A program made the translations under genes and the position numbers. Source: Chloroflexota bacterium (GTDB lineage: Bacteria > Chloroflexota > Anaerolineae > DTLA01). From it: a stretch of DNA of 33,577 bases. This document shows, piece by piece, positions 29,080 through 33,577 of the stretch (positions are counted from its first letter, which is position 1; the number at the start of each line of letters is the position of its first letter). The DNA is taken from positions 50,445-84,021 of the forward strand of contig JADBJK010000049.1 in assembly GCA_014874485.1 (NCBI GenBank). Direction: 5' to 3'. The notes below the pieces were generated by a model, which was not told the origin of the DNA, did not search any database, and worked only from the letters and a program-made list of their open reading frames with translations.

Positions 29080-31080
29080 TTAGTGTTGCTGCTTCACAAG
29101 TTCCAAAGCGCGCCTGTAGGCTTCCAGAGCCTTTTGCAGGCGCTCCTGCTTCATGCACAGGTCGCCGATGAGGGTATATGTGCGCGCCTGGGCCAGCGGG
29201 CCGGTTGCGCCACTCTCCAGGTCGGCGAGCACTTTGTCCAGCAGTACCCCTTTCCGTATGAGTTGCTCGTACAAGTCCAGCGCGCCGCCGACGTCTCCGC
29301 TGTCGCGGCGCTCGCGGGCCTGGGCCAGCACCTGCTCGGGCGAGAGTTCCTCCGCGACGGCAGGAGCCGGTGCCTCGGCGGGCGCGGCCTCCTCTGCGGC
29401 GGGGGCTTCGGCGACGGCCTCGGCGGGCGCGGCCTCCTCTGCGGCGGGGACTTCGGCGACGGCTTCGGTAGGCGCGGCCTCCTCTGCGGCGGGGGCTTCG
29501 GCTTCGGCTACAGCCTCCGGTGCGGCTTCTGCCACCGGTGCAGCCTCCTCTGCGGCGGGGGCTTCCAACGGGGTTTCGGCCAGGCGCGCGGCTTCGGCCA
29601 GCAGCGCCTCCAGGTCTATGACGGTGGGCCCGGCCTCTTCCGGCGCGGCCTCTGCCACCGGTGGGGCTTCGGCCTCGGCGGCCGCTTCCTCCGGGGCTTC
29701 GCCTGTAATCCCCGCAAGGAGCGCCTCAAGTTCCACCTCGGTGGGCTCGGCCTCTTCCAGCGCGGCCTCTGCCACTGGCCCGGCCTCCTCCACGGGCGCG
29801 ACCAGCCACTCGGGTAGCGGCTCCGGCGGGGCTTCCGCCGGCGCGGGGGCTTCTTCGGTCTCGGCCTGCGCCTCCAACTGCTTCAGCCAGTCGGGGATGC
29901 CTTCTCCGGCGACTGCTTCCGTCGGTTCCTCGGCGAGCGGCAACTCCTCGGTTGCTTCCTCGGCAGCCGGCGGTTCGGCCACGCCCTGCTCCTGACGCAA
30001 ACGCGCCAGCCAGTCGGGCACTTCCTCGGCTTCCTCGGCCGGGGCCGCGGGCTGTGCTGCCTCCTCCTTCTGTCGCTCGCGGATGCGCCGCAGCCAGTCG
30101 GGGATGCCTTCCTCAGCCTCCTCGCCCGCCACGGGCAACCCGGCCGCGACCGCAGCTGCTGCCTCAGTCTCCGGTTCCGCGGGTGCGCCGGTCTCGGCTT
30201 CGCCTTCGCGCAGGGGTTCCAGCGGCGCGCCCTTCAGCCAGTCGGCCAGCGCCTCTGCCGGAATCTCCTCTTCGGTGATCACGACTTCGGGCGCGGGAGC
30301 GGGTGCGGGCATCTCCTCGGGCGGGATGATTTTGACCACCCGCGCGGGCAGAGGAGACCGGTCGCCGAACAGTTTCTGCGCGACCGTGTTTTCGGGGTCT
30401 ATGTCCTGGGCCAGTTGGAGCAGCATCCGGCCTTCGCTCTCGCGCTCGCCGCGCAGGTTGATTTCGCCCAGGATGAGGTTGGCCTTCAGGCAATGAGGGT
30501 ACTCGGCCAGAATCTCCTCGCAAACCCGGACGGCCTCCTTGCGCTGGTCTGAATGCCACAGAGCCTCGGCCAGGGCGACTTTGATATCCACCAGGTTGGG
30601 GTCTTGCCCCAGGAGGGTGCGGTACTCCTGGATGGCCTGGAGCCACAGGCCGCTGCGGGCGTAGAGCCGCGCCACCGCCGCCGACGTGAGTTTTAGGCGG
30701 GGCCGCGCGACGCCCTCCCGCTGTGCGTACAGGCGCTGCAACTCCTTGCGGAGTTCCGCATTCCCAGGGGCCAGTTCATAGGCACGTTCCAAGTGCCAGA
30801 TGGCGAGGTCCAGGTTCCCCTGCTTCTCGTGGGCCACGGCAATGCCCACCCGCGAGAACAGGTCTTCCGGGTCGCAGGCCAGCGCGCGGGCGAAAAGCCC
30901 ATGCGCTTCCCTGTAGTTCCCTTTCTCCAAACAGGCTTCGCCCAGGATGCGATAGGTCTGGAGGTGTTTGGGATACACGCGCAACACATGCCGACCCATG
31001 GCGATCGCCTGGTCGTACAGGCCCTCGCCCACCAGTCGGCGCATCTCTTCGCCATAGGATTGCAGACTAACCTCTGGCAT
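29080..31080 (-). CDS. TPR protein with repeated PDWL motifs in an Ala/Glu/Pro-rich region
   Basis: 666 residues, no signal peptide or membrane helix. An N-terminal TPR array covers about residues 8-235 (e.g. LGEACLEKGNYREAHGLFARAL, KQGNLDLAIWHLERAYELAP). Residues 255-580 are acidic and Ala/Pro-rich, with five spaced tryptophan motifs: ADWL (279-282), PDWL (327-330, 355-358, 396-399) and PEWL (423-426). Two copies of LEALLA (451-456, 490-495) and a 15-residue tandem repeat (EAVAEAPAAEEAAPA type) follow. A second TPR-like segment ends the protein (about 580-666, ALEAYRRALELVK). Probably a scaffold; partners unknown. The start at 31080 follows GGGAGGT. Confidence 0.9.
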   Translation of the reverse strand: MPEVSLQSYGEEMRRLVGEGLYDQAIAMGRHVLRVYPKHLQTYRILGEACLEKGNYREAHGLFARALACDPEDLFSRVGIAVAHEKQGNLDLAIWHLERAYELAPGNAELRKELQRLYAQREGVARPRLKLTSAAVARLYARSGLWLQAIQEYRTLLGQDPNLVDIKVALAEALWHSDQRKEAVRVCEEILAEYPHCLKANLILGEINLRGERESEGRMLLQLAQDIDPENTVAQKLFGDRSPLPARVVKIIPPEEMPAPAPAPEVVITEEEIPAEALADWLKGAPLEPLREGEAETGAPAEPETEAAAAVAAGLPVAGEEAEEGIPDWLRRIRERQKEEAAQPAAPAEEAEEVPDWLARLRQEQGVAEPPAAEEATEELPLAEEPTEAVAGEGIPDWLKQLEAQAETEEAPAPAEAPPEPLPEWLVAPVEEAGPVAEAALEEAEPTEVELEALLAGITGEAPEEAAAEAEAPPVAEAAPEEAGPTVIDLEALLAEAARLAETPLEAPAAEEAAPVAEAAPEAVAEAEAPAAEEAAPTEAVAEVPAAEEAAPAEAVAEAPAAEEAAPAEAPAPAVAEELSPEQVLAQARERRDSGDVGGALDLYEQLIRKGVLLDKVLADLESGATGPLAQARTYTLIGDLCMKQERLQKALEAYRRALELVKQQH
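29381..29515. repeat. Three in-frame 45-bp tandem repeats inside the TPR gene
   Basis: Copies begin at 29381, 29426 and 29471, each starting GGCGCGGCCTCCTCTGCGGC on the plus strand, and encode the 15-residue Ala/Glu/Pro repeats near residues 523-568. The few differences suggest recent in-frame expansion. Confidence 0.85.
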
Positions 31081-31114
31081 CGCGCTACCTCCCTTCGTTC
31101 TCGCTGCCCGCCCT

Positions 31115-31143
31115 ATTATGCGGCCCTTTGGGCGAAAAGTCAA
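31115..31143 (-). promoter_or_regulatory. Promoter of the TPR-ndk unit
   Basis: On the minus strand: TTGACT (31138-31143), a 17-base spacer and CATAAT (31115-31120), 34 bases before the TPR gene start. Confidence 0.7.
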
Positions 31144-31221
31144 CCGGCCGAGGGCGATGGGCGCATTTCCATTCTGGGGCGAGAATGACCGAATGTCGTT
31201 AGGTTGTCGCGCAGAATCTTG

Positions 31222-31306
31222 CCTCACCTATCCCCACCGCCGGCCTTCCCCTTCCCTCTGCGCCCGCAGAGAGGAGAGGGGAGGGTGTGGGAGGGGTTAG
31301 GTGAGG
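31222..31306. repeat. 85-bp inverted repeat with CCTCACCTA/TAGGTGAGG ends
   Basis: The ends CCTCACCTA (31222-31230) and TAGGTGAGG (31298-31306) are perfect complements. The interior is purine- and pyrimidine-biased on opposite arms, with CTCTGCG/CGCAGAG at the centre. It is distinct from the REP families and single-copy in this window. Confidence 0.75.
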
Positions 31307-31567: not shown

Positions 31568-32644
31568 ATGCCGGAAGCAGGGCGAGAGAAAGCGTTGGAG
31601 ACGACGCTGCTGGGGTTGCGGAAACGGTTTGGCGATGGGGTCATCATGCGGCTGGGCGAGAGCACCGGCCTGAACGTGGACGCGATACCTACGGGCTCCA
31701 TCGCGCTGGACATCGCGTTGGGCGTGGGGGGCATCCCGCGCGGGCGCATCACCGAAATCTACGGCCCCGAAGCGTCGGGGAAGACGACCCTGTGCCAGCA
31801 CATCATCGCCGAGGCGCAGAAGCGGGGTGGTATCGCCGCGTTTATTGACGTGGAGCACGCCCTGGATCCTGCGTATGCCCGCCGCTGCGGGGTGAACATT
31901 GACGAGTTGTACATCTCGCAGCCCGACACGGGCGAGCAGGCCCTGGAAATCGCGGAGGCGCTGGTGCGCAGCGGCGCGGTGGATGTCATCGTCATTGACT
32001 CCGTCGCCGCGTTGGTGCCGCGCGCCGAGATTGAAGGCGAGATGGGCGACGCTCACATGGGGTTGCAGGCCCGGCTGATGTCGCAGGCCCTGCGCAAACT
32101 CGCAGGCGCCATCAAGCGGTCCAACACAGCCGTCGTGTTCACCAACCAGTTGCGGATGAAGATAGGCGTCCTGTTCGGAAATCCAGAGACCACGCCTGGC
32201 GGCAATGCCCTGAAGTTCTACGCGTCGGTGCGGCTGGACATGCGCCGCATGGAGGCCATCAAGCAAGGCGGTGCGGTAGTCGGAAACCGCGTCAAGGTCA
32301 GCGTCAAGAAGAACAAAGTGGCGCCGCCGTTCCGAGTGGCCGAGTTTGAAATCATGTTTGACGAGGGCATTTCCCGCACGGGCGACCTGCTGGATGTGGC
32401 AACGGCGCTGGGCGTCGTGGAGAAGCGCGGCGCGTTCTACTCCTATGGCGACCTGCGACTGGGACAGGGACGCGACAACGCGAAGGCGTTTTTGGCCGAG
32501 AACCCCGACCTGTTTGCTGAAATAGACCAAAAAGTCCGTGAAATCGCAGGATTGACACGGCAGGGAGGTGCAGTGTCGGGGCCCCTCTTTGCAGAAGGGG
32601 ATGAAGACCTAGAAGACGTAGAAGGCATAGAAGGCGACGAATAG
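31568..32644 (+). CDS. recA: Recombinase RecA
   Basis: ATP-dependent strand-exchange protein and co-protease for LexA-type repressors; 358 residues. Walker A GPEASGKT is at residues 66-73, the position found in E. coli RecA. Other features: [30 protein letters not shown]-type region (seen in [13 protein letters not shown]), Walker [23 protein letters not shown], loop L2 [22 protein letters not shown] (canonical FINQIR...TTTGG has small changes), and a very acidic C-terminal tail ([16 protein letters not shown]). AGGAGGA lies seven bases before ATG 31568. recX follows after a 365-bp structured gap. Confidence 0.98.
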
Positions 32645-32794
32645 ACACCTGGCTGAGTGCGACATGGTTGCTGATTTTCACTGAGACGGCACGCCATGCG
32701 TTCACGACGTTGCCCCTGTGGGCAGCGATCGGTGCATGAAGACGCAATGCGGGCTTTGCCCCAGCACATCGTAGCAGGGGCGAAGCAAAGAGGT

Positions 32795-32932
32795 GTATAT
32801 GGAAAACCCTTTGCCCGACAGTTGCGAACGGGGCAAGGTTTTGTGCACAGCATTTGAACAGCGCGGGGTAGACGAGGCGAGACCGTAGGCTCTGGCACGG
32901 TCTCCTCTTGGACTACCCGCGATTCCATATAC
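32795..32932 (+). ncRNA. Candidate structured RNA in the recA-recX gap
   Basis: A perfect 10-bp outer helix (GTATATGGAA 32795-32804 with TTCCATATAC 32923-32932) encloses two hairpins. The first pairs AAAACC-TTGCCC (32803-32816) with GGGCAAGGTTTT (32831-32842), with a 2-base bulge and a slight overlap with the outer helix. The second is long: GCGGGGTAG (32863-32871) with CTACCCGC (32913-32920), and GAGG-cg-AGACCGT (32874-32886) with ACGGTCTCCTC (32897-32907). Further hairpins lie upstream (about 32711-32724 and 32755-32784). I recognise no known RNA class. It could be a small RNA, an mRNA-processing element between recA and recX, or a 6S-like RNA. The strand is not certain. Confidence 0.5.
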
Positions 32933-32959
32933 TTCTTTTCCGATTTCGGGGCGAAAATC

Positions 32960-32992
32960 AGCCATGGCACTCCGCCATGGCTGTTTGCGTTT
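32960..32992 (+). terminator. Terminator-like hairpin before recX
   Basis: Perfect 9-bp stem AGCCATGGC (32960-32968) with GCCATGGCT (32974-32982), loop ACTCC, followed by GTTTGCGTTT. It lies 18 bases before the recX start, so it may end the RNA upstream or attenuate recX. Confidence 0.6.
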
Positions 32993-33009
32993 AGGGAGCC
33001 TGTGGCGAA

Positions 33010-33577
33010 GTGGACGCACACGAAATCACGGCACTGGAGGTGCAACAGCGCAACAAGGAGCGGGTGAACCTGCACCTGGACGGGGTGTACGCGTTCAGCA
33101 TCACGGCGCTGGAAGCGGCCCGCCTCAAGGTGGGCCAGCGCCTGACCGACGCCGAAGTCGCGCGCCTGAAGGCCCAGGCGGAGGTTGACCGCGCCTACGA
33201 GCGAACGCTGCGCTTCCTGACCTACAGGCCCAGGAGCGAGGCGGAGGTCGTCAAGTACCTCGCGTCCAAAGGCGTGGAGCCCAGCGTGCAGGCCGAAATC
33301 CTGGCGAAACTGCGCCGCCTGAACCTGGTGGACGACGAGGCGTTCGCCCGCTTCTGGATAGAAAGCCGTGAGCAGAGCCATCCGCTGGGGCGCATGGCGC
33401 TCCGTGCCGAACTGCGGCTGAAGGGCGTGCGCGACGAGACGATAGAGAAGGCGTTGCGGGCGCTGGACGAAGAGGAAAGCGCCTACCGCGCCGCGCGCAG
33501 GCAGGCGCGACGCTACGGCGACTTGAACGATAGGCAGGCACAAGAGAAACTCGGTGCGTTTTTGGTTCGGAGAGGTT
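33010..33577 (+). CDS. recX: Regulatory protein RecX (partial, cut by window end)
   Basis: Inhibitor/modulator of RecA filaments; at least 189 codons are visible. Translation from GTG 33010 reads VDAHEITALEVQQRNKERVN, then LDGVYAFSITALEAARLKVG, ERTLRFLTYRPRSEAEVVKYL, and LRRLNLVDDEAFARFWIESR, which are typical RecX helical-repeat segments. GRMALRAELRLKGV and EEESAYRAARRQARRY follow. An in-frame stop at 32992 limits the start; TTAGGGAG at 32991-32998 lies 11 bases before the GTG, a rather long spacing. The gene runs off the right edge. Its place directly after recA agrees with its role. Confidence 0.93.
   Translation, partial: MDAHEITALEVQQRNKERVNLHLDGVYAFSITALEAARLKVGQRLTDAEVARLKAQAEVDRAYERTLRFLTYRPRSEAEVVKYLASKGVEPSVQAEILAKLRRLNLVDDEAFARFWIESREQSHPLGRMALRAELRLKGVRDETIEKALRALDEEESAYRAARRQARRYGDLNDRQAQEKLGAFLVRRG

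Follow-up and report, generated by a model that had tools for sequence, protein, structure and literature searches.

The window, by which we mean the whole 33,577-nucleotide stretch of Chloroflexota DNA that was analysed, carries recA and recX in tandem on the plus strand. The two genes are separated by 365 nt (last nucleotide of recA, 32644; first of recX, 33010) without a conserved ORF, as the first-pass annotation had reported. Further upstream, at 29080-31227 on the minus strand, lies a gene for a TPR protein with a long, repetitive, Ala/Glu-rich middle section. The genes and the predicted features of the gap are as follows; G001 and G002 denote the two other members of the genus.

31568-32644, plus strand: recA, the upstream gene (Pfam PF00154, E 1.3e-133)
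32645-33009, plus strand: non-coding recA-recX gap with the putative leader RNA (fold z -5.2; low divergence from G002)
32655-32679, plus strand: 5′ strand of the putative long-range antiterminator helix P1 (GAGTGC .. CATG .. GCTGATTTTC); the duplex with its own partner has an energy of -20.4 and ranks with the most locus-specific of the 68
32697-32746, plus strand: hairpin A; the inner stem in G001 has another sequence and the same fold
32753-32786, plus strand: hairpin B; G001 keeps a hairpin, in a shifted register
32795-32804, plus strand: 5′ arm of the perfect 10-bp helix that closes the inner multi-branch domain, GTATATGGAA
32810-32837, plus strand: first enclosed hairpin (TTTGCCC/GGGCAAG), loop conserved
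32838-32859, plus strand: small hairpin separating the main two, sequence conserved
32862-32921, plus strand: long bulged stem; its sequence is variable in G001 yet refolds (dG -35.6)
32923-32932, plus strand: 3′ arm of the 10-bp helix, TTCCATATAC
32953-32972, plus strand: 3′ strand of P1 (GAAAATCAGC CATG GCACTC), overlapping the 5′ arm and loop of the terminator
32959-32983, plus strand: intrinsic terminator hairpin (CAGCCATGGC ACTCC GCCATGGCTG); identical hairpin in G001 and G002
32984-32992, plus strand: U-tract region TTTGCGTTT after the terminator
33010-33577, plus strand: recX, the putatively regulated gene, which leaves the window (Pfam PF21982, PF02631)

The gap folds more stably than shuffled sequence, with a z score of -5.2 for 32645-33010 (none of 100 shuffles equals it) and of -4.75 for 32785-32995 (none of 200). 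The perfect 10-bp helix described in the first-pass annotation is exact at 32795-32804 / 32923-32932, and the two hairpins that it was said to enclose are present, together with a third, small hairpin between them; the terminator-like hairpin placed just before recX was likewise found, at 32959-32983, followed by TTTGCGTTT. What had been described as a closed multi-branch RNA is indeed structured and uncatalogued, and it recurs in both other members of the genus, but the putative recX leader is larger, with this RNA as no more than its inner domain, and the structured element begins at approximately 32655 rather than at 32700.

A second perfect 10-bp pair, GCTGATTTTC (32670-32679) with GAAAATCAGC (32953-32962), brackets the entire element. 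This helix, P1, is extended by CATG/CATG and then by GAGTGC (32655-32660) paired with GCACTC (32967-32972). Because P1 occupies the 5′ arm of the terminator, P1 and the terminator are mutually exclusive. In our reading of the sequence, it is P1 (32655-32679 / 32953-32972), and not the 10-bp helix of the inner domain, that is the defining helix of the element. Constrained folding gave, for the P1 and the terminator state, respectively, -159.0 and -155.5 kcal/mol in the window, -147.3 and -144.1 kcal/mol in G002, and -153.3 and -148.6 kcal/mol in G001, i.e., an energy gap of 3-5 kcal/mol in all three members of the genus. P1 is already formed when the folded RNA is cut just past the terminator 5′ arm. 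In the terminator-state fold of the window and of G002, and partially in G001, an alternative local hairpin (approximately 32648-32704) traps the 5′ strand of P1. The terminator of the window lies 26 nt before recX, and its U-tract is weak.

Comparison within the genus indicates where the constraint lies. The gap is 95% and 78% identical in the two relatives, with blocks of 80-100% identity alternating with variable stems of 25-55%. Between the window and G002 the gap diverges by 3.7%, compared with 11-17% at fourfold sites (11% in recA and 17% in recX). The divergence of the gap from G001 is 25% overall, similar to that of fourfold sites; the constraint therefore sits in the blocks. The variable segments of G001 refold as matching hairpins in the case of hairpin A and the long stem, and as a hairpin of shifted register in the case of hairpin B. 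For this comparison each sequence was folded on its own, RNAalifold on the plain alignment of the trio having misaligned the variable stems. Of the conservation and covariation of helices in relatives, to which the first-pass annotation had looked, the former holds, in that the domain recurs in the genus and its variable stems still pair, but the 10-bp helix is without covariation support, because its arms vary in the trio at a single position, a G-to-C change in G001 that breaks the last pair. The 10-nt arms of P1 are invariant in the trio; it is in lineages outside the genus that P1 covaries.

When 298 genomes of the class were searched with R1, a covariance model built on the inner domain, matches came only from the three members of the genus. 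An inner domain shared by the whole class was rejected: the domain of the window is limited to its genus, and the words shared across families are only those of the terminator and the antiterminator. Neither R1 (298 genomes) nor word enrichment (69 groups) revealed a conserved sensor or aptamer domain across lineages.

The class was sampled through relatives of recA together with recX matches to which upstream regions were added, which yielded 92 recA-recX gaps. Their median length is 426 nt, whereas the phylum's other classes have gaps of -3 to 171 nt; the earlier statement that most recA-recX gaps are short thus holds for other Chloroflexota classes and fails for this Anaerolineae-like class. 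Separately, the 482-nt gap of L088 (Dehalococcoidia) resembles, when its sequence is read by eye, a small ORF of GIY-YIG type and not a leader. The words found far above shuffles across 69 independent groups were GCTGTGG, CCACAGC, and U-tract words, the first two of which are the predicted terminator and its partner strand. The median distance from the terminator end to recX is 27 nt in 68 leaders, 58 of which have a terminator with a YGTGR core; the terminator of the window has CAGCCATGGC, a variant of the class core GCTGTGG. Leader bodies fold beyond shuffles as well (mean z -2.3, compared with -1.06 for recA coding ends). P1 is clear in approximately one third to one half of the leaders and weak in the others. 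The energy difference between the two states has a median of -0.3 kcal/mol in 25 class leaders and stays within 7 kcal/mol in 23 of them, figures that show balance and not frequency, since this set was picked for strong P1.

The pairing of the terminator with its leader is specific to the locus. For 67 independent leaders, the 5′ arm of the terminator was paired with nucleotides 1-200 of every leader, its own and the others, and the pairing energies were double-centred, which strips shared sequence and composition from them. The advantage of the own leader averages -3.40 kcal/mol, compared with -0.01 kcal/mol (sd 0.30) under permutation (z -11.3; 0 of 5000 permutations), and the own leader falls within the top 5% of its row in 19 of 67 cases, where 3.4 were expected; the window is among the stronger cases. 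In the controls, neither the terminator 3′ arm with the first 200 nt of the leader (z 1.5) nor the 5′ arm with the end of the recA coding sequence (z 0.7) gave a signal; against leader nucleotides 200-400, the 5′ arm was null (z -0.3) and the 3′ arm weak at most (z -2.0). A duplicated hairpin was rejected as the source of the signal because it would also produce one from the 3′ arm, which gave none. It should be noted that the pairing tests were devised during the analysis and that the own-versus-cross form replaced a weaker plain-shuffle version, whose crude finder mislocated some terminators. In our opinion, this comparison shows that the predicted three-strand arrangement of P1 and terminator co-evolves in recX leaders across the class.

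Two simpler readings of the gap are to be weighed against these results. Long inverted repeats can have roles in DNA, and the repeats might be DNA-level palindromes, or chance, without RNA function; the folding z scores, the strand specificity of the pairing, and the null controls make this scarcely credible. Alternatively, the gap could work by plain incomplete termination, the long intervening sequence being filler and its folds incidental. In E. coli a terminator between recA and recX limits recX, and readthrough supplies ~10% of recX transcripts (PMC3542578). An intergenic terminator would suffice for this known mode, and some relatives do have a short gap with the terminator alone (87 nt at L038 and 85 nt at L215). 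It would not, however, explain why the upstream strand and the terminator arm co-evolve locus by locus (z -11.3), nor the low divergence of the gap or its structure beyond chance, and we regard it as improbable.

The distribution of loci shows that the predicted terminator and leader belong to recX and not to recA. The recX of the window lies directly behind recA, yet the leader also precedes recX genes with no upstream recA. Where recA is absent within ~1.2-1.5 kb of recX, the terminator, often with its core, is still present in most loci, the upstream genes being (according to translations read by eye) trmD-like or encoding a beta-propeller protein, a sensor kinase, a glycosyltransferase, and others. 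Among recA genes without recX, the core occurs in few loci and a likely terminator only at L063 (recX could lie beyond the searched range). An RNA of the recA 3′ UTR was rejected because the core is mostly absent behind such recX-less recA genes, with exceptions such as L063. A strict hairpin pattern occurs at 10 places in 100 class genomes, of which 8 are just before recX and 2 have no clear gene behind them. Some class genomes contain two recA genes (L031/L038, L053/L061, and L068/L073); in the first pair, recX is nearby only at L038, across the 87-nt gap. In family f27 (L219, L226, L231, L235, and L236), where recX lies away from recA, a different hairpin, of the AGCCGAGGC...CGGCTGT type, is found upstream and is possibly a derived version of the switch.

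Neither a sigma-70 promoter nor a LexA box was found in the gap of the window, so the leader may belong to a recA-recX transcript. In one clade (L046, L049, L055, L067, L080, and L168), a LexA-like box (GCACN4GTTC or GAACN4GTGC) is located 54-58 nt after the recA stop, adjoining the P1 (antiterminator) strand directly on its upstream side. In the class, this motif is also strong upstream of recA, and the box of this clade suggests an SOS-controlled recX promoter there. Within 250 nt upstream of recA, exact GAACN4GTTC boxes are present in 23 of 79 class loci (0.2 expected), often accompanied by GAACN4GTGC; no box of either kind was found upstream of the recA of the window.

These observations bear on whether the element could instead be a discrete non-coding RNA, made from the recA 3′ region or from its own promoter, ending at the terminator and acting in trans, with P1 as its closing stem. 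The element is closed, highly structured, and non-coding, its 3′ end carries a terminator, and the LexA-like box that precedes the P1 strand in one clade would suit such a transcript. The element, however, always sits immediately upstream of recX, in the same orientation and at a median distance of 27 nt from the gene start, and it travels with recX and not with recA; moreover, the overlap of the closing strand with the terminator arm creates balanced, exclusive folds that a free RNA would not need. We consider a free RNA unlikely, and the arrangement of the loci favours a cis-acting recX leader over the free transcript of 140-200 nt that the first-pass annotation had envisaged.

A different kind of attenuator, in which translation ending at the recA stop, or of a leader peptide, covers the P1 5′ strand, would be compatible with the window, where this strand starts 11 nt past the stop codon. 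Elsewhere, however, the strand lies up to ~186 nt past recA, or no recA is upstream, and sense ORFs in the leaders are shorter than in shuffles; ribosome-dependent control is, in our view, very unlikely. A coding origin of the leaders was rejected, their longest ORFs being no longer than in shuffles.

The structure had been said to fit no nameable class, and Rfam agrees: the window has no match at gathering or relaxed thresholds. No family was found for 20 class loci at gathering thresholds or for 20 more at E<=1, one spurious miRNA aside. A weak cmscan alignment to rli61, a Listeria sRNA, is largely confined to the terminator hairpin (E 0.18, 21.3 bits; gathering score 50), and the resemblance is generic. 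ARAGORN and Rfam detected no tRNA, tmRNA, or other housekeeping RNA in the window.

Taken from sequence and folding, the gap is probably a transcription-attenuation leader of recX with an antiterminator/terminator switch. An intrinsic terminator stands just upstream of the gene start in the window (32959-32983) and in 68 leaders, and a strand upstream of it that excludes the terminator is provided by P1 in the window and its genus and indicated class-wide by the pairing test (z -11.3). P1 would form before the terminator 3′ arm is made, giving readthrough into recX by default. Under some condition the local hairpin (~32648-32704) would capture the P1 5′ strand, freeing the terminator and stopping transcription. 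The inner domain with its 10-bp helix may be the site at which the signal acts in this genus, candidate signals being a metabolite, a partner RNA, or a protein, for example RecA or RecX. RecX is an inhibitor of the RecA filament (PMC3062782), and the switch would set the timing and strength of the restraint that RecX places on RecA.

Like known terminator/antiterminator attenuators, such as transcriptional riboswitches and T-boxes, the leader has exclusive folds, an antiterminator that takes the terminator 5′ arm, and a position directly upstream of the gene. Unlike them, it has no Rfam-detected aptamer or specifier and its target is recX; furthermore, lineages share the terminator with P1 but have different inner domains. 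The term riboswitch is unsuited because no conserved aptamer was found. The terminator between the two genes is shared with E. coli, which differs from the long leader here, with its competing helix, kept even where recA is not adjacent. In Mycobacterium tuberculosis, recX is partly co-transcribed with recA and partly transcribed separately from a promoter inside recA, the two coding regions overlapping (PMC3062782); M. tuberculosis has that internal promoter and no leader RNA. No earlier report of an RNA switch before recX was found in the literature searched, the coverage of which was limited; the class of mechanism is known, and the RNA and its target gene appear to be new.

More tentatively, sensory leaders of several hundred nucleotides throughout the Anaerolineae might directly sense a DNA-damage or nucleotide signal, or the RecA or RecX proteins, and switch recX transcription, as an RNA-level feedback on homologous recombination; we regard this as a possibility on the doubtful side. 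The attenuation model makes a sharp prediction, with named strands, two states, and compensatory mutations. The expression of recX is known to be set by promoters, co-transcription, and leaky termination; with a dedicated and co-evolving RNA switch upstream of the gene, the control of RecA would gain an RNA layer. The putative recX leaders occur in a large, mostly uncultured class of bacteria and point to an undescribed tuning of DNA repair.
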